A stretch of DNA of 64,000 nucleotides from Ereboglobus luteus (GCF_003096195.1 NZ_CP023004.1:3390501-3454500), one strand, 5' to 3'. Shown: positions 22,021 to 33,566, counted from the first letter of the stretch. Numbers and translations: made by a program. Notes: generated by a model not told the origin, from the sequence alone.

Positions 22021-23448
22021 TCATGGCGTTCGCCCGATATTGGCCAGGCTTCGGTCAACATCGCGCTCCCATTCGGTTATCTCGCGGGTTAGCCGTTCCA
22101 CAATCGCCGGCTCGGTTTTTGCCAGATTGCGAGTTTCCCCCGGGTCTTGGTCCAGCCTGAACAGCGCGGGCGCATTTTCCTTGGAAAGGTGGAGCTTCCA
22201 CGGTCCGGAACGCACGGCCCGCCGTCCGCGGAAACGCCAGAAAACCGACCGTTCGGGCAATGCATCTTCTTTTTGCAAGTGTTTCACCAAGCTGACTCCA
22301 TCAGGATGCAGGACCTTGGTTTCGGGCAGAGGCACACCCGCGAGCTCCAGCGCAGTCGGGACAATGTCCATGGTCATCGCCACTGCCGCACTCGTCCGGC
22401 CGGCGGGGATTTGTCCGGGCCAGCGGGCGATTGCAGGCACCCGATGCCCGCCTTCGAAAAGGGACATTTTGCCGCCTTGATATGCTCCATGGTTGGAAAT
22501 CTCCCCGCGATACCGCCCTTGATACTCAAGGTAACCGCCATTGTCGGAGGTAAAAATCACCAGCGTGTCACCTTCCAGTCCCAGCTGTCGCAGGGGGTCC
22601 AGTATTCGTCCGGTGCTGCGGTCCACATCGCCAATCATCTCCTGCACGACTTCGCGCAACTCCGGCCCGCCCACATGCGGCCCGAGCCGACTGTCGGCGG
22701 GATTGGTTATGCCGTAATAGCCTTTGCCCAGCTTGCGATGGGGCTCGTCGCTGGAGCGCATCCAGGGAAAATGGATGGCCGCGTGCGAAACAAAGAGAAA
22801 AAACGGACGGGCCTTGTTCCGTTGGATGAATTGAATGGAATAGTCGGTGATGAGGCGCGTGGTGTTGCCGGGCTGCTTCTCCGGCTTCAGCACTTCGTTT
22901 TCCCACCAATCGGGGAGGCCCGCGCGATTGATTTGGGCCGAGTAATCGCCTTCGCTGCAAATGAGCCCGCGGAATTCACCGAACCCGAAACGCACCGGAT
23001 TCTCGTCGGGATGATGTCCGAGATGCCATTTGCCAAACAGTCCTGTCTCATACCCGGCCGCGCGCAAATGCTGCGCCAGCGTGACTGTCTTCGCGGGCAA
23101 CCCATGCCGCTCCGCTGGAAATTCCATGATCGGCAATGCGGACTCAATGCCAACGCGCTGGGGATAGCGTCCCGTGAGAAATGCCGCGCGAGTCGGCGAG
23201 CACATCGGGCCGTTGGCATGAAAGTCGGTGAAACGCATTCCCTCGCGGGCCATTTTATCCAGGCGCGGTGTCGGCTTGCCGGGGTTTCCGTAGCAGCCGA
23301 GGTCGGCATAACCCAAGTCGTCCGCCAATATCACCACAATATTGGGCGGACGTTTGAGGGCAGGCGGGGAAGCGGCGCCGGCGGCCGAGGCGGCGCTTCC
23401 CGCCAATCCGGCGAGCGAGGCAATAATCAATCGGCGGCGGTGCGTCAT
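22021..23448 (-). CDS. Secreted arylsulfatase (sulfatase family S1)
   Basis: 475 residues. It would remove sulfate esters from a carbohydrate in the periplasm. The N-terminus has a twin-arginine-like/basic signal ('THRRRLIIASLAG', Ala-rich to about residue 26). Metal-binding aspartates are in 'ILADDLGYADLG'. The modification motif is C83-S-P-T-R with downstream 'LTGRYPQRVG', so the cysteine must become formylglycine; no maturase gene is in the window. It also has 'GKWHLG' and 'FTSDNGGYLEYQG'. It sits 8 bp after the TonB receptor and is almost certainly its co-transcribed partner. Confidence 0.93.
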   Translation of the reverse strand: MTHRRRLIIASLAGLAGSAASAAGAASPPALKRPPNIVVILADDLGYADLGCYGNPGKPTPRLDKMAREGMRFTDFHANGPMCSPTRAAFLTGRYPQRVGIESALPIMEFPAERHGLPAKTVTLAQHLRAAGYETGLFGKWHLGHHPDENPVRFGFGEFRGLICSEGDYSAQINRAGLPDWWENEVLKPEKQPGNTTRLITDYSIQFIQRNKARPFFLFVSHAAIHFPWMRSSDEPHRKLGKGYYGITNPADSRLGPHVGGPELREVVQEMIGDVDRSTGRILDPLRQLGLEGDTLVIFTSDNGGYLEYQGRYRGEISNHGAYQGGKMSLFEGGHRVPAIARWPGQIPAGRTSAAVAMTMDIVPTALELAGVPLPETKVLHPDGVSLVKHLQKEDALPERSVFWRFRGRRAVRSGPWKLHLSKENAPALFRLDQDPGETRNLAKTEPAIVERLTREITEWERDVDRSLANIGRTP

Positions 23449-23456
23449 TTGTTAAT

Positions 23457-26441
23457 TTAGAAACGCCCGCTGATGCCCATGTTCAGGCGCGCTCCATAGA
23501 CTTCGGTGACATAAGTGCGGGAGCGATCCCCCACATACCAATCGGGCGAATGATTAAAGGCATTCAGGTAATCCACAAAAAAGTTGAGCCTCGAGTTGAG
23601 CCGGTATTGGACGTTGAAATCCCAGGTCGGGTCGTCCGTCTTGTAGGTGCCTGCTGTTGCCGCCGCCGAGAAGCGGAAATAATAACTGCCCTTGAAGTGA
23701 TGGGTGGCACGGAGTGTGAGCTTGCCGATTTTATATACAATTCCGGCATTATAGGTGGTGGGCACAAATTCGACCAGCGGACTTTCCTCGCCCGCGGCAT
23801 TGGTGCCCGAAGTGTTGAGCCGGGTGTAGTTGGCCCAGAGTGTCAGGCCCTTGAACGGCTTCGGAAGGAAGTGAAGCGATTGATTATAATTAAGCTCCAG
23901 GCCGTCGATGCGCGCGTCTCCCATGTTGTCCCTGGTGGTGAAGGTAAAGCCCTCATAGCGTCCGTCGAACCCGTTGCCCGGACCTTCCCCGATGATGCGA
24001 TGGGTCGTGGCGATGAAATCGGTAATGTCCTTGCGAAAAACACCGGCGGAAATAACGCCGGCCGGCTCCAGGTAATACTCAATGCTAAGGTCGTAGTTTT
24101 TGCTGTATTGCGGCTTCAGACTTGGATTCGAGGAAACCACGGTGCCGTCATCATCGACCCCGCCCCGGTAGGTCACGGTTGTGTAGGGAATCAATTCCTT
24201 GATTTCCGGACGTCCGCACGAGGTCGAGTAACTGGCGCGCAGCACGAAATTGCGCACCACATTGTAGGTGACATGCACGCTCGGGAAAACCTTGGAGTAG
24301 CTTCCCCTTCGCTCAATTGTTGTTTGGTCGGGATTGTATGGATCGGAAAGCGAGCCCCGCGCCTTCACGCGCGTTTCCTCGGCGCGCACTCCGGCCAGAA
24401 TGGTAAGCGGTCCGATACTTGAAGTGGCCTGAATGTATCCGGCGTTAACCAGTTCCCGCGATTCGCCGGGAATCGCCTTTTTTGAAACCGTGGTGCCGTT
24501 TTCGGAAAACTGCTCCGGATGTGTCTTGAAGTGGCTCCGAAACCGATCGAAATCGAGTTGATCCATTCCCTCGTAATGCCCGTCAAAAAGGCCGTAGCTT
24601 TTCGAGCCTTTCAGAAAACCGGACAGGTTGTCGTCATTGATGCTGGTGTCGGGATTGACGCCCTGCACTCCGTCAACGCCGACGTAATACCATTTTGGCC
24701 GATAGGTGTTGAGCATCCAGCGGGTTTGGTGGCGCATGTCGAAACCGCTCTTTAGTTTCACCGGATTATTAAATACACGCAGTGTTTTTTCCGCATCAAT
24801 GCGATAGTTTGTGATGTCGTCCTTGGTGCGGTCGGGTTGCTCAATCCACTCGGCCTTGTATAAATTAAAATTGCTGCCGTATGCGATGGAGGGACCTATG
24901 GTTTGCGTATACTTGGGGCGGTCGCGGTCTGTTGTGTCGATCGCCATGCCGATGCCGGGCAACGTTGCGTTAAGGGCAAGGTAATTGTTGGTTGCCCGCC
25001 CGGGATTGTAGGAAAACTCAGTGGTCACAAGACCATCCGTGAATTTTTTCTCACCGCCAAGGGCCGCCTTGAATGTTCTTTGGTAACGCCGCTCTTCCGC
25101 CGCGCACGATGTGAAGGTGGCGTTTAACAATTCCGTGAAGGTCCCGGTGTATCCGGGGGCGATGCCGGCTGTCTGATTACTCGCGGTCCGAGGGGTTTTT
25201 CCTGCTTCAATGTCGGCGCGACTGACTTTGTTATAATCGGCAACCCGGCGGCTGCCGGTTGCGTTTGTGTTAAAGCTCAGGCGTTCAGTATGGAAATTAT
25301 AATAGGTTCCGGCGAGCTTCACCCAAGTGCGCAGCGTTTTGTTGAAACGGTATTCAAAGTTGGCGCTTATGCCGCCGCGTCTCCTCGTGTTGGTGTCGTC
25401 AAGATAGCGCGCGCGACTGTTGATGGGCTGGCCTTTCACGAGATACGCGCCTTGCACACGGTCGCGATGGCTCACCGTCTCGGTATAGCTCGCCGAAAAG
25501 GCGATACCGAGCCGCCTGCCGAAAAAGGTGTCCATATAGCTGATCGCGGCAGTCGGCGTAACCGGTGTGCTGGAGCGATAGGTGTTGAGGTTCGCGCCCG
25601 CGCGATAATCGATGACCCGGTTGCGATAATCGAAGGCGGATTTTGTCACGAGATTCACCGAGCCGCCCAATGAGTCCGCGGGCATGTCGGGACGGTTTCC
25701 TTTTGTGATTTCAATTTCCTTGATTGAGTCCGAGGGAATCTGGTCGACAAGCATCGCGCGGTCGCCTTGTGGCATCACACCGATGGTCGGCGAGGATGAG
25801 CGCGTGCCGTCAAGTGTCACCGAATTCATATCTGGAGGCGTGCCGCGCACACTGACGCCAATGACATCGCCCGCTTCGATATTTACCGCGAGGCCGGGTA
25901 GGTTTTGGAGGAAATTTCCCACATTGCCGTCGGCCACATTTCCGTAGGCATCCATTGAAATCACGCTGACGACATTCTCCGCGTTGCGCTGCCGTGTGAT
26001 TGACGCCGCGTTTCCCTCGCGCTCGCCGGTGACGACGATTTTTTCCAAGCGCACAATCTCGTCCGCGTCCTTTAGCTCGATTGGCAAATCCACCATCGCC
26101 CCCGCAGTCACATTAACCGTCTTCGACCAAGGCATGAGGCCCGTGTAATAAACCTCGATCACGTGCGTGCCCTCGGGAATCCGATAAAATGAAAACTCTC
26201 CCTCTCGCGAGGTTGTGGTTCGCAGATTCAGCGCCCGGACGCTGACTGTCGCGCCCTCAAGATACGCGCCGGTCGCCTCGTTGGAAACTCGGCCCGTCAT
26301 GGTGCCACTGCCCGAGCCGGCCGGCTGTGCCGGGATGCGCGGCAGTAGAACAAATAATATTGCAAAAAGAGTCAGCGCCGCGCGGGCCGCGGACAAAGAG
26401 AATATAGACGGTATTGGCGACTGTGGGTGCGGGGATTTCAT
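23457..26441 (-). CDS. TonB-dependent receptor with carboxypeptidase-like N-domain
   Basis: 994 residues, outer membrane. It has a signal peptide (about 18-42), then a CarboxypepD_reg-like fold at 45-125 ('MTGRVSNEATGAYLEGATVSVRAL'), then the plug ('IVVTGEREGNAASI', 'NVGNFLQNLPGLAVN', 'ISVRG..PDMNSVTLDG' type). The rest is a long barrel ending in phenylalanine (MGISGRF). The plug resembles the TonB-Xanth-Caul group that imports oligosaccharides. The ATG at 26441 is chosen because it begins the signal peptide; the frame is open upstream through non-coding promoter DNA. The sulfatase gene follows, and the FCD-AraC regulator gene is divergent. Confidence 0.93.
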   Translation of the reverse strand: MKSPHPQSPIPSIFSLSAARAALTLFAILFVLLPRIPAQPAGSGSGTMTGRVSNEATGAYLEGATVSVRALNLRTTTSREGEFSFYRIPEGTHVIEVYYTGLMPWSKTVNVTAGAMVDLPIELKDADEIVRLEKIVVTGEREGNAASITRQRNAENVVSVISMDAYGNVADGNVGNFLQNLPGLAVNIEAGDVIGVSVRGTPPDMNSVTLDGTRSSSPTIGVMPQGDRAMLVDQIPSDSIKEIEITKGNRPDMPADSLGGSVNLVTKSAFDYRNRVIDYRAGANLNTYRSSTPVTPTAAISYMDTFFGRRLGIAFSASYTETVSHRDRVQGAYLVKGQPINSRARYLDDTNTRRRGGISANFEYRFNKTLRTWVKLAGTYYNFHTERLSFNTNATGSRRVADYNKVSRADIEAGKTPRTASNQTAGIAPGYTGTFTELLNATFTSCAAEERRYQRTFKAALGGEKKFTDGLVTTEFSYNPGRATNNYLALNATLPGIGMAIDTTDRDRPKYTQTIGPSIAYGSNFNLYKAEWIEQPDRTKDDITNYRIDAEKTLRVFNNPVKLKSGFDMRHQTRWMLNTYRPKWYYVGVDGVQGVNPDTSINDDNLSGFLKGSKSYGLFDGHYEGMDQLDFDRFRSHFKTHPEQFSENGTTVSKKAIPGESRELVNAGYIQATSSIGPLTILAGVRAEETRVKARGSLSDPYNPDQTTIERRGSYSKVFPSVHVTYNVVRNFVLRASYSTSCGRPEIKELIPYTTVTYRGGVDDDGTVVSSNPSLKPQYSKNYDLSIEYYLEPAGVISAGVFRKDITDFIATTHRIIGEGPGNGFDGRYEGFTFTTRDNMGDARIDGLELNYNQSLHFLPKPFKGLTLWANYTRLNTSGTNAAGEESPLVEFVPTTYNAGIVYKIGKLTLRATHHFKGSYYFRFSAAATAGTYKTDDPTWDFNVQYRLNSRLNFFVDYLNAFNHSPDWYVGDRSRTYVTEVYGARLNMGISGRF

Positions 26442-26546
26442 GGTAAGAATCGGGTTTTGGGAGGGGGATTTGATTGCCGGGCGTTGAATCGATTTGCCTA
26501 GTTCGGTAATTACGCTTGTTTTTATCCAGCATTTGATTTTTATTTT

Positions 26547-26616
26547 CAAGCAGTGACAAACGTCCGAATATAGAATGCCCAGCCCCGCATATATTATTGT
26601 TTGATTTCGCATATTT
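26547..26616. promoter_or_regulatory. Shared 70-bp upstream element, copy A
   Basis: This lies in the 208-bp gap between the TonB receptor and the divergent FCD-AraC gene, starting 105 nt from the receptor's ATG. It aligns without gaps to 31063-31132, with 48 of 70 identical and 24 of 30 in the core that begins GCATA and ends GATTTCGCATATTT. A GAATCGAT 45 nt from the start codon is shared as well. It is probably an operator and promoter region. Confidence 0.7.
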
Positions 26617-26649
26617 TTAAAAACTATAAGGCGAAAATATTTTACAGTT

Positions 26650-27450
26650 ATGACAGACGACGAACTTCGCAGACTCTCATCGCTCCGATCCCTGATCGAG
26701 GGCTTCGGCTCGCGCTGTGCCGCGGTGCAACTGGCGGGCAAGCACGAGCAGATCGACGCATTGCATGAAATTGCGAAACGCCTGAACAAGGCGGCGCGCA
26801 AGCGTGATTACGAGGGCTTCCGCAATGCGGACGCGCAATTGCACGAAACAATAATGGAGGCAGCCGGCGTTCCCTTTTTGCGCGAAGTCTGGAAAATTGT
26901 GTGGAACGGGCTCTCCGAATTTCACGAGCGCGGCTTCAAGGAATATGTCACCGACCCGCGCACGCTCATTGGCGAACATGAGTATTTGCTCGAAACAATC
27001 GCCCGCAGCGATGCCGCCGCCGCCGAGGATGCGGCGCGCTGCCATGCCGAGGCCAACTGGGCGCGGTTGGCGGCGCGCAAGCAAAAAACCAGCAAGGGCA
27101 CCGAGCCGTTTCATTTCGCGGAGGCGCACATAGCCGCGCATTTGCATTGCCCGCTGCGCTTGGAGGAGGTTGCGGCAAAAATCGCCTTCACCAGCCCGGG
27201 AAATCTCTCCCGTTTGTTCAGGCAGCATTACGGTCTCAGCTTCAAGGCGCATTTGCAAAAATTGCGCATGGCAAAAGCAGCGGAACTGCTTGCATCGACC
27301 GGCCTTCCGGTCGCGACAATCGCCCGGCGCGTGGGATATCGTGATGTGTCGCGTTTCGCGCAGCATTTCCGCAGGCATTATAAAATGCTGCCCCGGGAAT
27401 GGCGAAGCACGACGGCGGACGGGCGCGCGCAAGGAAACACGGTATTCTGA
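26650..27450 (+). CDS. FCD-AraC fusion transcriptional regulator
   Basis: 266 residues with an unusual architecture. Residues 1-145 look like an FCD ligand-binding domain, normally the C-terminal half of FadR-type GntR regulators. The usual metal ligands are present: D61 and H65 in 'DAQLHETI', H110 in 'GEHEYL' and H132 in 'CHAEAN'. There is no GntR winged helix in front. Residues 155-255 are an AraC/XylS DNA-binding domain ('LEEVAAKIAFTSPGNLSRLF' and 'GYRDVSRFAQHFRRHY'). It probably senses a small acid, perhaps a sugar acid, and controls the divergent receptor-sulfatase operon. The ATG at 26650 is the first in frame. Confidence 0.82.
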   Translation: MTDDELRRLSSLRSLIEGFGSRCAAVQLAGKHEQIDALHEIAKRLNKAARKRDYEGFRNADAQLHETIMEAAGVPFLREVWKIVWNGLSEFHERGFKEYVTDPRTLIGEHEYLLETIARSDAAAAEDAARCHAEANWARLAARKQKTSKGTEPFHFAEAHIAAHLHCPLRLEEVAAKIAFTSPGNLSRLFRQHYGLSFKAHLQKLRMAKAAELLASTGLPVATIARRVGYRDVSRFAQHFRRHYKMLPREWRSTTADGRAQGNTVF

Positions 27451-27480
27451 TCACCCAGGCGCGATTGTGACTGGACCGGA

Positions 27481-27512
27481 GGGTAGGGCGGTTGCCAGAC
27501 TGTCGCAATTCG
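27481..27512. repeat. Degraded copy of type 1 palindrome
   Basis: GGTAGGGCGGTTG followed by CCAGACTGTCGCAA resembles the element at 8271-8295. It lies between two convergent genes. The pairing arms have decayed. Confidence 0.4.
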
Positions 27513-27541
27513 CGGCGCCCGCAGGGCCGCTTATTATTCGC

Positions 27542-28444
27542 TCAACGCGGGATGAATTTCTGCACACGCCAGTTTACTATCTCGGCGATGTATATATTTC
27601 CGCTTGGAGCCACGGCGATCTGGTGCGCATAACCGAATTCTCCCGGCATTTTTCCAGGAACCCCGAATGTGCCTTCGAGTTTGCCGTCGAGTGTCAATTT
27701 CACAACGCGGTTGGCGTGTCCGTCGCACATGAAGAGGTAATCGTCGGGAGTTATGCACATGCCCCACGGCGAGCCGTATTGATCCCATTGTGTTATATAT
27801 TCGCCTTCGCGTGTGAAAACTTGAATGCGATAGTTTTCGCGGTCGCCTATATAAACGCGCCCCGTGCGATCCACCACGACGGAATGCGGCATGTCGAACT
27901 CGCCGGGGCCGGTTCCCTTGCGGCCCCACGCATTTATGAAGCGCCCCTCTTTTGTATAACGCACCACGCGCGAGTTTCCGTAACCATCGGTCACGTAGAT
28001 GTCGCCGTGCGGACCAAATCCGACATCGGTGGGCTGGTTGAAATTTTCCTCGGTTTCACCGGGGGTTTGCTTGCGCCCGAGCACCATGCGAACTTGGCCG
28101 GCGGGATCAATTTTAACAATCATGTGGCCGCCGCCATCGACCGCCCAGATGTTGCCCTCGGGGTCAAGTTTGACACTGTGCGGCCAGACAAACATGCGGT
28201 TGCCCCACGCGCGTCGCAAAGTGCCGTCGGGCGCAAACTCCATGAGGGGATTTTCCCCGCGGTGAAAAACATAAGCGTGCTCGCGGGAGTCGACGGCGAT
28301 CCCCGGGGTTTCCTCGAAAGTGGTGTTGTCGGGAAGTCTTGGCCACAACGGATCCGGTTTATAATTCAGGCGGGGCCATTTGCTGCCGTCGACGATTCGC
28401 GCGTTTTGATAAATTTGACCAATTGCTGTTGTCGTTTCGCTCAT
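27542..28444 (-). CDS. NHL-repeat beta-propeller protein (PAL/SMP-30-like)
   Basis: 300 residues with no signal peptide, so probably cytoplasmic. Five or six NHL-type blades carry recurring 'G.I.V.D..G.....V' strands: 'TPGIAVDSREHAYVF', 'PHSVKLDPEGNIWAVDGGG', 'PTDVGFGPHGDIYVTDGYGN', 'PHSVVVDRTGRVYIGDREN' and 'AHQIAVAPSGNIYIAEIVN'. The closest named fold is peptidyl-alpha-hydroxyglycine amidating lyase or SMP-30/gluconolactonase-like. In this setting a lactonase or sugar-binding role is plausible but unproven. It is the last gene of the sialidase-MFS-NHL operon, 44 bp after the MFS gene. Confidence 0.8.
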   Translation of the reverse strand: MSETTTAIGQIYQNARIVDGSKWPRLNYKPDPLWPRLPDNTTFEETPGIAVDSREHAYVFHRGENPLMEFAPDGTLRRAWGNRMFVWPHSVKLDPEGNIWAVDGGGHMIVKIDPAGQVRMVLGRKQTPGETEENFNQPTDVGFGPHGDIYVTDGYGNSRVVRYTKEGRFINAWGRKGTGPGEFDMPHSVVVDRTGRVYIGDRENYRIQVFTREGEYITQWDQYGSPWGMCITPDDYLFMCDGHANRVVKLTLDGKLEGTFGVPGKMPGEFGYAHQIAVAPSGNIYIAEIVNWRVQKFIPR

Positions 28445-28488
28445 GATAAATTTTATAATAAAATCGAAGTCTTGAAAATATGAGAGGT

Positions 28489-29862
28489 TTAATGGGTTGT
28501 GATCTCATGGCGCGCCACGCGCGTAACTATGTCGCGTTTTACAAAAACCAGGCCCGCGAGAATCAAAAGAACCGCGCCGACGAGATAAACAACCGAGCCG
28601 AACGCGATCGCCTCGCTCATGTTTGCCACCGGATCGGCGTGGCGGCCGTATTTTGTGGCCAGCCCGACCGCAAGCGGGCCGAGCGCGCCGCCACCCCAGC
28701 CGACCATGTTCATCAGTCCCGCGGCGCTGGCGCGGGCTCGTGGCTCGACCACATCGTAAACGGATGCGAAAACATTCGAGTCATAAAAACCCTTGCACAT
28801 GCCGAAGCACGCCATCGCAACGAGGAGCAGCGTGACATTGTTTGTCAGCCCGACAAGCCCCACAAAAACAATCCCGCAGACAAGCCCGGTTGCCTGCACC
28901 AGCATGCGCCCGCCGGGATGTCGCGCCGCCCACCGATCCGCAAGAATGCCGGCGAATGGCACGCTTATCGCGCTTGCCAGATGGATGAACACACTGCCTG
29001 AAAGGCCGGCGTTTGTCAGTCGGAAGTGAAACTTTTCAACCAAGAAATAGGGCGTCCATGTGAGGAAAATTGTCGCGACAAAATTCGCCGCCATGAATCC
29101 GCCCAGAAGCAGCCACACGGTGGGTTTGCGCAATATAATCCTGGCCGTTTCGAACACGGTTGGCGGAGTCTCGTCAACCGCGGCCTGCGCTGGTTGCGGC
29201 TGCTCCGGCTGCCGGTCTTTTTCAGCTTTTAATGTTTCGGCTTCCTCGCGTTCCGCCGCACCGCGCGCGCGGTCATGCAGGAAGCGATAGAGCACGAGCG
29301 CGAGCAGCATGCCCGCCGCGCCGAACAGATAAAATCCCCAGCGCCAGCCGTGGTGTTCGGCGAACCACGCGCCGAGCCAGCCACCGCCAATGGTGCCGGC
29401 GTAAACGCTCGACTGGTGCAGCGAGAACGCGCGCGACCGCGTCTTCCGGTTGTGATAGTCGCCCATCAGTGACATGGCCGATGGAAAATAAAACGTTTCG
29501 CCGACTCCCTCGAGCGCGCGCACCGTGACAAAATGCCAGAGCTTGCTGCACCAGCCGGTCATCACCGTGATTGCGCTCCAGAACAGGCACCCGCCGAGAA
29601 TGAGGTGCTTGCGTGAAACGCGATCGGCAATGAATCCGGCAAACGGCGAGCCGAATGCATACACCCACATGAACGCCGACCCAATCAAGCCGAGCTGCAC
29701 CGCATCGAAGCCGAATTCTGTTTTGAGCGCCGGAAAAACGGCGTAGATCGCCTGGCGATCCGCGTAGTTAAAAAAACAAATGCACCAAAACATCGCCACC
29801 ACGGCCCATTTATAATTCGGGCCGACGACACGTTGGGGTTTGCTTGGTTTTTCAGGGGACAT
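28489..29862 (-). CDS. MFS transporter (anion:cation symporter type), operon B
   Basis: 457 residues with twelve likely membrane helices. The first loop carries 'FFNYADRQAIYAVFP', and the loop after helix 2 has 'GFIADRVSRKHLI', the MFS A-motif. A charged cytoplasmic loop near residue 200 ('REEAETLKAEKDRQPEQPQ') separates the halves. Relatives carry hexuronates, other sugar acids or organic anions. It lies 38 bp after the sialidase-like gene and is likely the inner-membrane importer for that enzyme's product. Confidence 0.88.
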   Translation of the reverse strand: MSPEKPSKPQRVVGPNYKWAVVAMFWCICFFNYADRQAIYAVFPALKTEFGFDAVQLGLIGSAFMWVYAFGSPFAGFIADRVSRKHLILGGCLFWSAITVMTGWCSKLWHFVTVRALEGVGETFYFPSAMSLMGDYHNRKTRSRAFSLHQSSVYAGTIGGGWLGAWFAEHHGWRWGFYLFGAAGMLLALVLYRFLHDRARGAAEREEAETLKAEKDRQPEQPQPAQAAVDETPPTVFETARIILRKPTVWLLLGGFMAANFVATIFLTWTPYFLVEKFHFRLTNAGLSGSVFIHLASAISVPFAGILADRWAARHPGGRMLVQATGLVCGIVFVGLVGLTNNVTLLLVAMACFGMCKGFYDSNVFASVYDVVEPRARASAAGLMNMVGWGGGALGPLAVGLATKYGRHADPVANMSEAIAFGSVVYLVGAVLLILAGLVFVKRDIVTRVARHEITTH

Positions 29863-29900
29863 GCGGGGATGTGTTTAAAAGGGTGGGGTGGCGCGGTTGC

Positions 29901-30953
29901 TTATTTGCGTTCGAGCACCACATGTTTTATGCGCGCGCGGTTCCACGTGTAGGTGATATGCACGCGTCCGTCCTGTGCCTGGATGATCGCGGGATAGGCG
30001 TAACCGTTGCGCACGGGGACATTCTCAAGTGTGATTGCGCGCTCCCATGCCTCTCCGTCCATGGAGTAATCGACGACGAGCGGACACCGCGCGCCCCATT
30101 TCGATTTGTCCGAGGCGACTCGCGGATTATACACAAGCAGCATGCCGCCTTCCCTCAGGGCAATCGCATCAATGCCGGAGTTTATCGATGCGATGCCGGT
30201 GCCGGAAAGGGGCGTCCAAGTCTTGCCTCCGTCACGCGACCACGTGCGCGATATTTCACGGTTCGCACTGCGCGAAAGCGCCATGAGTGAGCCGTCCGGT
30301 TGGATTAAAATAGTTGGTTGGATCGAGCGGAATTTTTTCGGGTCGGCGACATCATCGCTCTTTTTCCAATCGACGAGCGAGTCATCGGTTCGCTCAAAAC
30401 AGATTGCCCAATCGTTCTTGTTGTATTCCCGCGCGCTCGGGCAAAGCAGCGTGCCGTCCTTGAGGCGCACCGGCTTGTTTTTGACAGGCCCCACCAGATT
30501 TTTCGGAAGGCGCGAGCGATTTCCCCATGTTGCGCCGCCGTCCCTCGAAACCAGCAACTCACCCCACCAATCCGTTGGCGAGGGGCCGACTTTGAAGAAC
30601 AAAATAACGCGCCCGTCTGCCGCCCGGTAAAGAACCGGATTCCAAGTCGGGTGACGTTTGCCGTCGGATTGCACGCCGTTGGCAACCGAAACGCCTGGTG
30701 TCCATGCGCCGTTTTCATAGCGGGACACCCATATCTCCACGTCATCATGTCCCTCTTTGCTGCCGCCAAACCAAGTGGCGATGAATTTGCCGGGCGCAAT
30801 TTCCACGATTGAGGACGAGTGCACCTCGGCCACGGGCGGCGCCGGTTCAATGAAACCACTCTTGACGATCTCCCATCGCGGAGCGGCGCATGCGGCGGAG
30901 AGCATCGCGATGCAATAAAAGGCGGCAAGCCGGAAGGTTTTTAACGATGTCAT
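29901..30953 (-). CDS. Sialidase-superfamily exo-glycosidase (BNR/Asp-box)
   Basis: 350 residues with an N-terminal signal ('FYCIAMLSAACAAP'). Asp-boxes of form SxDxGxTW occur at residues 136-143 (SRDGGATW) and 239-246 (SRDGGKTW). The N-terminal pattern 'EVHSSSIVEIAPGKFIATWFGGSKEGHDDVEIW' (several strands) is typical of the bacterial sialidase-like family near GH33. True sialidase specificity is uncertain, since relatives in polysaccharide loci act on other acidic sugars. The ATG at 30953 is chosen to begin the signal. It is the first gene of operon B, preceded by the shared 70-bp element. Confidence 0.83.
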   Translation of the reverse strand: MTSLKTFRLAAFYCIAMLSAACAAPRWEIVKSGFIEPAPPVAEVHSSSIVEIAPGKFIATWFGGSKEGHDDVEIWVSRYENGAWTPGVSVANGVQSDGKRHPTWNPVLYRAADGRVILFFKVGPSPTDWWGELLVSRDGGATWGNRSRLPKNLVGPVKNKPVRLKDGTLLCPSAREYNKNDWAICFERTDDSLVDWKKSDDVADPKKFRSIQPTILIQPDGSLMALSRSANREISRTWSRDGGKTWTPLSGTGIASINSGIDAIALREGGMLLVYNPRVASDKSKWGARCPLVVDYSMDGEAWERAITLENVPVRNGYAYPAIIQAQDGRVHITYTWNRARIKHVVLERK

Positions 30954-31318
30954 GGAAGGGTGCCTGTGAGTTTTGGGTTTAATTATGCAATCTGCCCGCG
31001 AATCGATCTGACATGATTTCACGATCATTAATCATGCTTATTCAAAAAGAATCCGACTGTTGCAAGCAGCGACAGGCACCAAGACCGAGAATGCTTTTCC
31101 GCGCATAAATTGATGTTCGATTTCACATATTCGCCACACCCTTGGTCGGGACAAACATCCTGTTTTGTTTGAGATAAAACATAGCCGCAATGTGTAAACT
31201 CGATCACCGCGAGCGCCCTGACGATGGCATCGTCTTTGTCATGTGCCGAGGCAATACGCTGTCTTGAGTCCATGGTTTTGCGCTGCCTAGATGCGGGCGA
31301 AACACACGGCGGCCGGCC
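30954..31318. other. Gene-free promoter interval of operon B
   Basis: These 365 bp hold no recognisable gene; an 81-codon minus-strand frame here covers the regulatory element and has no family features. Besides the 70-bp element it contains a TGTTTT/AAAACA inverted repeat with a 9-nt spacer at 31161-31181. The iclR stop codon lies at the right edge. Confidence 0.6.
31063..31132. promoter_or_regulatory. Shared 70-bp upstream element, copy B
   Basis: The partner of 26547-26616, located 109 nt before the sialidase-like gene's start codon, almost the same distance as copy A. A matching GAATCGAT lies 47 nt from the start. The conserved core here reads GCATAAATT then GATTTCACATATTC. Confidence 0.7.
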
Positions 31319-32095
31319 TTACCGTTTCATGGCCAGGATTCGTTCCAGTCGCGCCGCGAGCTTGAGCACGGATTGTTCGAGTTCGGCTTGGTCCCGATGG
31401 ATATAAACGTCGTGGCGCAGCAATAGCGCCACCGCGAGGCGCGGCGGATTCACAAGCGGCTCGCGCACGATGGCGGCAATGGACACATGGTCCTTGCTGC
31501 TCTCGCGGATATTCCATGCAAAACCCTTTTCACGCGCCTGCCGCAGCTGCGCGTAGAAGCGCTCGGGCGAAAGATTGGTATGGGGCGTGGTCGCCTCGTC
31601 CCCCTCGCGGGGCGCGTATTTGGGCCACTCGGACTCGGGCATTTGCGCAACGAGAACTTTTCCCGGCGACGATGAATGAATCAGGCTGTTTTGCCCGAGG
31701 CGCATGGTGTTGCCCTCGTCCCCGGCCGCGCAGACGACATAGGCGTAACGTCCGCCGAGCATGTCGACATACACGCTCGCATCGAGCGCCGCGGCGGTTT
31801 TGCGCAGCTCGGCGTCAAGGCGCATATTGTGGGCGAAGTGCGCGGCCACTTCATGCACAAACTCAAAGATGCGCGCATCCACGCCATAGCGATAATTGCG
31901 CGGGTTTTGTTGAAGAAAACCGATTTGGCAAAGCGTCTTGAGCAACCGGTGCAGGGACGACTTTGGCATGCCGAGCTCATTGGCGATCTGCGTGACGCCA
32001 AGCGCGTAGCCTCGTTGAAGCAAGAGGCGGACAACCGCTATGCCTTGCGTCAATGGTGTCGCTGTTCGTTCGTGCCGGGGTGGGGACTGGCTCAT
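31319..32095 (-). CDS. IclR family transcriptional regulator
   Basis: 258 residues. The N-terminal winged helix (about 10-75) has 'LGVTQIANELGMPKSSLHRLLKTL' across the recognition helix, followed by 'GFLQQNPRNYRYG'. The C-terminal IclR effector domain has 'SVYVDMLGGRYAYVVC' and 'SSSPGKVLVAQMPE'. Regulators of this family usually sense a sugar acid or aromatic acid. It is divergent from the FAD oxidoreductase-GH65-pgmB run, with a 133-bp gap that holds a suitable palindrome. The ATG at 32095 is chosen; 13 further codons are open upstream. Confidence 0.9.
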   Translation of the reverse strand: MSQSPPRHERTATPLTQGIAVVRLLLQRGYALGVTQIANELGMPKSSLHRLLKTLCQIGFLQQNPRNYRYGVDARIFEFVHEVAAHFAHNMRLDAELRKTAAALDASVYVDMLGGRYAYVVCAAGDEGNTMRLGQNSLIHSSSPGKVLVAQMPESEWPKYAPREGDEATTPHTNLSPERFYAQLRQAREKGFAWNIRESSKDHVSIAAIVREPLVNPPRLAVALLLRHDVYIHRDQAELEQSVLKLAARLERILAMKR

Positions 32096-32148
32096 CTTGG
32101 CACTAGAGAAAGTGCTTCGCCGGATGGCGGGCAATCTTTATCCTTCCG

Positions 32149-32162
32149 TTCCATTGGTGGAA
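32149..32162. promoter_or_regulatory. Candidate IclR operator
   Basis: TTCCA-TTGG-TGGAA is a perfect 5-bp inverted repeat with a 4-bp centre in the divergent gap between iclR and the FAD oxidoreductase. IclR-family sites often contain TGGAA/TTCCA half-sites, usually in the opposite orientation, so this is a candidate only. Confidence 0.4.
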
Positions 32163-32228
32163 TCCATCCGCGCGCCAACGGCGGTCCGTGCTCGTTGTCA
32201 TTCGAAAAAGCGCCCCATATCTGCGGGC

Positions 32229-33566
32229 ATGGAATCCCAACCCTGTGATTTTACCACCCCGTGCCTTGTTGTTGGCGGAGGCCCCGCCGGTTATGGCGCG
32301 GCGCTCGCCGCCGCGCGAAACGGCTGCAAGGTCATGCTCGTCGAGCGCCACGGTTTTCTCGGAGGCATGGGGGCCGCGGCGAATCTCAGTTGCTACATCA
32401 ACTACCGCAGCGGCGAGGAGGATTTGAGCGAGGCGGCATACCGCGAGCTCATCGGGCAGCTGAGGGCCTCCGGGCTTTCGTATCCCGTGCGCTATGCACA
32501 CACAGATTACATCGATCCCGAATTCACAAAGGTGGTGATGGAAAAAACACTCATCGGCGCGGGCGTGACGCTGTTGTATCATAGCTTGTTTGAGCGCGCC
32601 GCGCGCGCGGCGGACGGAGGCTGGTTGGTCGAGTTCGTCGCGAAAAACGCGCGCATCCGCGTGCGCGCCGATTATGTGATCGACGCCACCGGTGACGCGG
32701 ATGTGTGCGCCTCCGCCGGGGCGGCGATGACACACGGGCGCAAGAGCGACGGGCGCGCGCAACCCATGTCGATGGTCACGCAACTTTCCGGTTTTGATCC
32801 CGGGGCCTGGGAGCGCGCGGGCGAGCCCATCGAGGCCGGGCGTTATGCGGTGAAATGCGATTGCTTCGCCGATCTCATCGCCCGGGCGCGCGCCGAGGGT
32901 GAGTGGACAATTCCACGCGAAAACATTGCCATGCTCTGGGCAGCCCCCGGCGATCCGACTTCTGTGACCATCAACGGCACGCGCATCAACGGGCTGAGCG
33001 CGTGCGACCCGCTTGATGTCACGCGCGCGGAGATCGAGGGCCGCCGTCAGGCGGACGAACTGGCGCGGTTTTTCAAAAAATACGTGCCCGGTTTTGAGCG
33101 CTCGCATTTGTCCCGCACCGGACCGCAAATCGGCGTGCGCGAGAGCCGGCGCATCACCGGGCGCGCCTTGCTCACCGAGGATGATGTGCGCGAAAGCCGA
33201 CATCCCGATGATTCCATTACACGCTGCGCCTATCCGATCGATGTGCACAGCCCGGACAGCGCCTCCACCCAGTTTGAATCGATACCGGGCAAGCATTCCT
33301 ACGGCATACCGTGGGGTTGCCTGCTGCCCGCCAGTCTCGAAAACATGGCCGCCGCCGGGCGCTGCATCAGCGCGACACATGAGGCCGCGGGCAGTTTTCG
33401 CGTCATGCCCACCTGCATGGGGCTTGGCGAGGCGGCCGGTTCGGGGGTGGCAATCGCAGCGGAGCGCGGAGCCGTTTTGTCATCAGTGCCGGCGCAGGCA
33501 GTCCGTGCCATGATGGACGGGAATCTGCGGCGCCGCGAGGCATCCGAATCCATAATCAACAAATAA
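32229..33566 (+). CDS. FAD-dependent oxidoreductase (FAD_oxidored type)
   Basis: 445 residues, cytoplasmic. A Rossmann dinucleotide site lies close to the N-terminus ('CLVVGGGPAGYGAALAAARNG', a GxGxxG pattern) and 'VMLVERHGFLGGMG' ends the second strand with the ribose-binding Glu. Family features continue with 'VIDATGDADVCASAGAAM', 'IGVRESRRITG' and a C-terminal 'AGSFRVMPTCMGLGEAAG'. PF12831-type oxidoreductases often sit in polysaccharide loci of Verrucomicrobiota and Planctomycetota; the substrate is usually unknown. The ATG at 32229 is chosen because upstream in-frame codons run into the iclR gene. GH65 follows after 5 bp. Confidence 0.87.
   Translation: MESQPCDFTTPCLVVGGGPAGYGAALAAARNGCKVMLVERHGFLGGMGAAANLSCYINYRSGEEDLSEAAYRELIGQLRASGLSYPVRYAHTDYIDPEFTKVVMEKTLIGAGVTLLYHSLFERAARAADGGWLVEFVAKNARIRVRADYVIDATGDADVCASAGAAMTHGRKSDGRAQPMSMVTQLSGFDPGAWERAGEPIEAGRYAVKCDCFADLIARARAEGEWTIPRENIAMLWAAPGDPTSVTINGTRINGLSACDPLDVTRAEIEGRRQADELARFFKKYVPGFERSHLSRTGPQIGVRESRRITGRALLTEDDVRESRHPDDSITRCAYPIDVHSPDSASTQFESIPGKHSYGIPWGCLLPASLENMAAAGRCISATHEAAGSFRVMPTCMGLGEAAGSGVAIAAERGAVLSSVPAQAVRAMMDGNLRRREASESIINK

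Follow-up and report, generated by a model that had tools for sequence, protein, structure and literature searches.

Two minus-strand glycan operons of Ereboglobus luteus carry a similar sequence upstream of their first genes, which raises the question of whether one regulator switches both and, if so, which one. Within the window, by which we mean the whole 64-kb (64,000-nucleotide) stretch of DNA that was analyzed, element A (26547-26616) and element B (31063-31132) align without a gap and agree at 48 of 70 positions. This match had been claimed in a preliminary description of the locus and is borne out: in 1,000 dinucleotide shuffles of both intergenic regions, the best 70-mer had 38 matches (mean, 32.2), and nowhere else in the window does the element match at more than 35 of 70 bases. 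The core, GCATA...CATATT, does contain the 24 matches reported for it, but is 29 nt long rather than 30 nt. Likewise, the spacing between element and start codon is as described: 105 nt from the end of A to the ATG of the TonB receptor gene (26441), and 109 nt from the end of B to that of the BNR gene (30953). GAATCGAT does precede both start codons, although at 44 and 46 nt from the ATG, one less than the 45 and 47 nt originally given.

The downstream genes are unrelated, as had been claimed (Pfam TonB-dependent receptor versus BNR_2). The two operons are indeed separate, but they are not remote loci. Rather, they are neighbors that flank the gene for a regulator with FCD and AraC domains (FCD-AraC), with ~4.5 kb between the two elements. 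Element A is located in the gap between the TonB-receptor/sulfatase operon (minus strand) and the divergent FCD-AraC gene (plus strand). Element B is upstream of the minus-strand BNR_2-MFS-NHL operon, with an IclR gene further upstream. The genes are as follows.

22021-23448, minus strand: sulfatase, second gene of operon A (Pfam Sulfatase, 4e-62)
23457-26441, minus strand: TonB-dependent receptor, first gene of operon A (Pfam/NCBIfam)
26650-27450, plus strand: FCD-AraC regulator, proposed binder of A and B (Pfam FCD, 2.3e-19; HTH_18, 1.1e-24)
27542-28444, minus strand: NHL-repeat protein, operon B (domain match)
28489-29862, minus strand: MFS transporter, operon B (best named subfamily D-galactonate transporter, below its cut-off)
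29901-30953, minus strand: BNR_2 beta-propeller protein, sialidase-like, first gene of operon B (Pfam BNR_2, 1e-78)

We did not adopt the identification of the BNR protein as a sialidase: its matches to solved sialidases are only remote, and the propeller aligns with them only after its first part. In a genome of the same genus (G001), a 77%-identical BNR orthologue is found beside S1/P1 nuclease, MFS and GDPD genes (L177 8425-12760), and these neighbors suggest that its function may be other than that of a sialidase.

We consider it highly likely that A and B represent operators, together with -35 regions, of the FCD-AraC protein encoded between the two operons, and that this protein, when bound to its effector, acts as a class-I activator of both. 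The site, its repeat geometry, its link to the regulator, the fixed promoter spacing and the conserved metal ligands are established computationally. Each 70-bp element is compound. A direct-repeat operator (26573-26616 and 31089-31132) is joined on its left by a conserved promoter segment, CAAGCAGYGACA, and this left part is the -35 region of the target promoter. The operator is 44 bp long, with the pattern ...GCATA-N11-GATTTCnCATA. The predicted regulatory features are listed below.

26486-26493, plus strand: GAATCGAT box A, possible degenerate downstream half-site, ~112-113 bp from the core, weak score
26521-26526, minus strand: candidate -10 GATAAA of the TonB-receptor operon, 17-bp spacer, as read from the sequence
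26544-26549, minus strand: proposed -35 TTGAAA of the TonB-receptor operon, TTG 24 nt from operator A
26573-26616, plus strand: operator A, direct-repeat half-sites 26574-26593 and 26596-26615, spacing 22 bp (CGCATATATT/CGCATATTTT)
31000-31007, plus strand: GAATCGAT box B, possible degenerate downstream half-site, ~114 bp from the core, weak score
31037-31042, minus strand: candidate -10 AATAAG of the BNR operon, 17-bp spacer
31060-31065, minus strand: proposed -35 TTGCAA of the BNR operon, TTG 24 nt from operator B
31089-31132, plus strand: operator B, half-sites 31090-31109 and 31112-31131, ranked second by the held-out matrix

The held-out matrix spans 44 bp and was derived from 12 upstream regions of FCD-AraC genes at other loci, with A and B excluded. 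In the window it ranks A first (36.4) and B second (36.0), with the next best position at 10.7; this match is partly selected, because the choice of training sites was initially guided by A and B. For this reason, a de novo motif search was performed on 13 upstream regions of FCD-AraC genes, with the window left out, and it yielded the same motif (LLR 280, versus 200-208 for shuffled sequences). The de novo motif, the family-wide sites and the TTG offset depend much less on A/B-guided selection than does the matrix match. In most of the FCD-AraC upstream regions, the core follows the consensus RATGTYCGRTTTCnCATA, with the second half-site usually 22 bp off, a spacing shared by A, B and most other loci. 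Upstream of one FCD-AraC gene (L069 1358-1420) the half-sites are in tandem: the second copy follows the first at 22 bp, and a third, weaker one follows at a further 21 bp; these copies would make a good probe for cooperativity.

When a sequence-only model was used to search the whole 4.17-Mb genome, three matches were found: A (E 0.0037), B (E 0.0046) and the site of the sole FCD-AraC paralogue in this genome, which is 56% identical and located at position 2804079. All three sites precede operons at FCD-AraC loci. At E<=0.1, the search detects a site in 13 of 252 family genomes. The full-length FCD-AraC gene is present in nine family genomes, and the site was detected in 9/9 at this threshold, although L064-L067 and L071 are close relatives, and such counts therefore are not independent events. 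In G481, the site is at the end of a contig, and the adjoining cut-off reading frame begins MNETELRRLSELRAILEGFAARHAASH, the N-terminus of FCD-AraC. The protein search had missed this reading frame, which was revealed by the site alone. The remaining three family matches (G072, G553 and G479; E 0.026-0.088) look like chance when the surrounding sequence is read. The preliminary description had proposed a comparison with related genomes; the element does recur there, and only together with the FCD-AraC gene. In G001, the 77%-identical BNR gene is present, and the FCD-AraC gene and the site are both absent.

Full-length FCD-AraC homologues were found in Opitutaceae and in a few other Verrucomicrobiota; when contigs were scanned, an alignment query detected homologues and a single-protein query found nothing. 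Among the more distant relatives of FCD-AraC, outside the family, three (G133, G298 and G261) have no clear site upstream, and a fourth (G119) has a weak candidate (15/20). The region upstream of the G133 homologue (L046 about 1430-1480) lacks the motif and has instead a CACTGAT repeat, possibly a different operator.

Several relatives have loci with a similar arrangement. In L071, one site is located between the genes for the FCD-AraC regulator and a TonB receptor; another, which was outside the training set, precedes a gene for a DHDPS/NanA-type aldolase. Judging from these predicted sites, L071 is an independent two-operon case built on the same plan as the window. In L064-L067, the FCD-AraC gene is divergent from a DHDPS/NanA-type aldolase gene, whose family was assigned in L138 (that is, G480), and other FCD-AraC loci have nearby genes for sialic-acid-specific acetylesterase-type proteins, SBF or SSF transporters and BNR proteins. 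This context hints that N-acetylneuraminate may be the effector.

Because the held-out matrix, the genome scan and the family-wide co-occurrence tie the site to the FCD-AraC gene, we infer that this regulator (gene start at 26650), and not IclR, would bind both elements. The earlier proposal that one regulator serves both operons is supported in this predictive sense. The proposed two-operon regulon also holds as a prediction, and it would be extended by FCD-AraC's own divergent gap.

In the proposed mechanism, an FCD-AraC dimer (or two monomers) would occupy two direct half-sites, one 22-bp step apart and on the same face of the DNA. The FCD domain would take a small effector, probably a sugar acid coordinated through a metal ion. 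The effector-bound protein would then recruit RNA polymerase, in class-I fashion, to a promoter with its -35 TTG exactly 24 nt away, so that the TonB receptor-sulfatase operon and the BNR-MFS-NHL operon would be switched on together. FCD-AraC may also control its own gene. On the target strand, the TTG is offset from the operator edge by exactly 24 nt in 12/15 sites, and by 25 nt at the paralogue's site. Class-I activation is suggested because the operator is upstream of the -35 at a fixed distance, an arrangement that fits this mode of control. Both -10 boxes are weak; neither is detected by a generic promoter scan, which also does not list the TTGAAA/GATAAA promoter.

An extra half-site is found 111-112 bp away, downstream of the promoter, in L064, L065, L066, L067, L073 and the second L071 site, where it might permit a DNA loop; in L074, an extra half-site occurs at 88 bp. 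We considered GAATCGAT as a strong third site in the window and rejected it on its weak scores in both A and B; at most, it might be a weak extra half-site.

Binding, activation in preference to repression, and the class of effector are our inferences, and a rather unlikely alternative is that FCD-AraC binds A and B as a repressor that is released by its effector, like NanR. FCD sensors are usually found in repressors such as NanR (PMC8012715), and the half-site downstream of the promoter at 111-112 bp (L064-L067, L073, L071) could act as a repression loop or roadblock. However, A and B have this half-site in weak form or not at all, and the position of the main operator, upstream of the proposed -35 and at the fixed 24 nt in 12/15 sites, is the geometry of an activator. 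AraC-family proteins are mostly activators.

We also regard as doubtful that the paralogous FCD-AraC at genome position 2804079 binds A and B as well, which would give two regulators acting on three sites. The two proteins are 56% identical and have the same first recognition helix, and the paralogue's own site is related to A and B; its core alone matches those of A and B at 14/20 positions, which is not significant (360/1,000 shuffles), and matches the G013 core at 17/20. The G013 core itself matches the A/B core at 17/20, a value reached in 0/1,000 shuffles. However, the second recognition helix of the paralogue is of the SLF type, and SLF-type sites lack the left GCATA that A and B carry. 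For regulators with an SRF...HF(R/K) second helix, GCATA or ACATA is present in the left half-site in A, B and 7/8 others, versus 0/4 for those with SLF...HF(F/A/V), in a sample that is small and composed of related sequences. By this predicted correspondence, A and B fit the adjacent FCD-AraC and not the paralogue. The locus of the paralogue (L043 2600-10350; genome 2797099-2804849) has divergent genes for BNR_2, an SBF transporter and a TonB receptor, with its operator at L043 9367-9408.

It is very improbable that the IclR regulator (31319-32134) binds A and B, even though its gene is directly upstream of operon B. In G586, an 84%-identical IclR is found beside the same divergent FAD oxidoreductase (83%) with no site nearby, and the site of that genome is instead at its FCD-AraC gene, about 1.9 Mb from IclR. 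Conversely, G013 has the site and no IclR match, in a genome that is 67% complete. The divergent FAD oxidoreductase/GH65 genes are the more likely targets of IclR. In the window, IclR and the divergent FAD oxidoreductase occupy 31319-33566, and this pair is kept in G586 (83-84%) apart from the FCD-AraC locus; it is a separate module beside operon B.

Finally, the preliminary description had allowed for a dispersed repeat, but an origin of A and B as such a repeat, a mobile-element remnant or a recent intergenic duplication is scarcely credible, for although the two similar copies are 4.5 kb apart, the 4.17-Mb genome has only three matches, all before operons at FCD-AraC loci, and the motif recurs across genera beside FCD-AraC with its conservation concentrated in the half-sites and the -35.

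The preferred regulator, FCD-AraC, consists of an N-terminal FCD sensor domain and a C-terminal AraC HTH_18 domain. Its AlphaFold model (pLDDT 84.6) matches, in Foldseek searches, the DNA-binding domains of AraC, YesN and AdpA, as well as FCD domains that include those of McbR, PdhR, DgoR and NanR. No GntR winged helix was found at the N-terminus: Pfam detects the FCD and AraC domains only, and the model starts with the FCD helices. By sequence, the nearest solved FCD is that of DgoR (7c7e, 3e-10). In NanR, zinc is bound by Asp172, His176, His222 and His244, in the site that holds Neu5Ac (PMC8012715). The counterparts in FCD-AraC are D61, H65, H110 and H132, which are invariant in 9/9 aligned regulators and have a spacing of 4/45/22, versus 4/46/22 in NanR. 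Because all four zinc ligands of NanR are conserved, the effector is likely a sugar acid held by a metal.

In a literature search that was incomplete, we found no description of an FCD-AraC regulator or of its operator. On balance, we favor the broader view that FCD-AraC is an undescribed architecture with an operator code of its own. It would control operons for sugar acids and glycans in Opitutaceae and in a small number of other Verrucomicrobiota. Two paralogues are encoded by the Ereboglobus luteus genome, and the left half-site would vary with a specificity switch in the second recognition helix. For the window itself, the predicted sites support a regulon of local extent under an unusual FCD-AraC protein. 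In this regulator, AraC-type DNA binding is coupled to a sensor domain that is familiar from GntR repressors, and a predicted operator, the promoters it would serve and a probable metal site can now be assigned to it. Regulons of unstudied Opitutaceae can be read from sequence: in G481, the contig-end site led, correctly, to the prediction of a truncated gene for the regulator. In gut and soil Verrucomicrobiota, the sites point to the receptor and enzyme operons that probably act together in the use of glycans.

The system resembles several that are known. As in polysaccharide-utilization-type loci, genes for a TonB receptor, a sulfatase, a transporter and a beta-propeller protein are clustered with a regulator; the type of regulator and its operator differ, and no description of these was found in the literature searched. 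With AraC/XylS regulators (for example, AraC at I1-I2), it has in common the HTH_18 domain, two direct half-sites about two helical turns apart, an operator upstream of the -35 and a regulator gene divergent from the target operon. However, the sensor is an N-terminal FCD rather than the AraC cupin, the spacing is 22 bp, and binding is, in our case, predicted. DgoR, a D-galactonate-responsive GntR regulator, provides the best sequence match to the FCD, and the MFS transporter of operon B is nearest to the D-galactonate transporter subfamily, whereas the DNA-binding domain and operator are different. From NanR of Escherichia coli (GntR/FadR), FCD-AraC differs in having a C-terminal AraC-type DNA-binding domain in place of an N-terminal GntR domain, and neither GGTATA nor TATACC, as expected of the (GGTATA)n operator of NanR, is present in element A or B. 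What it shares with NanR and its sialoregulon is the FCD sensor, including all four metal ligands, and the use of one operator type for several glycan or sialic acid operons.
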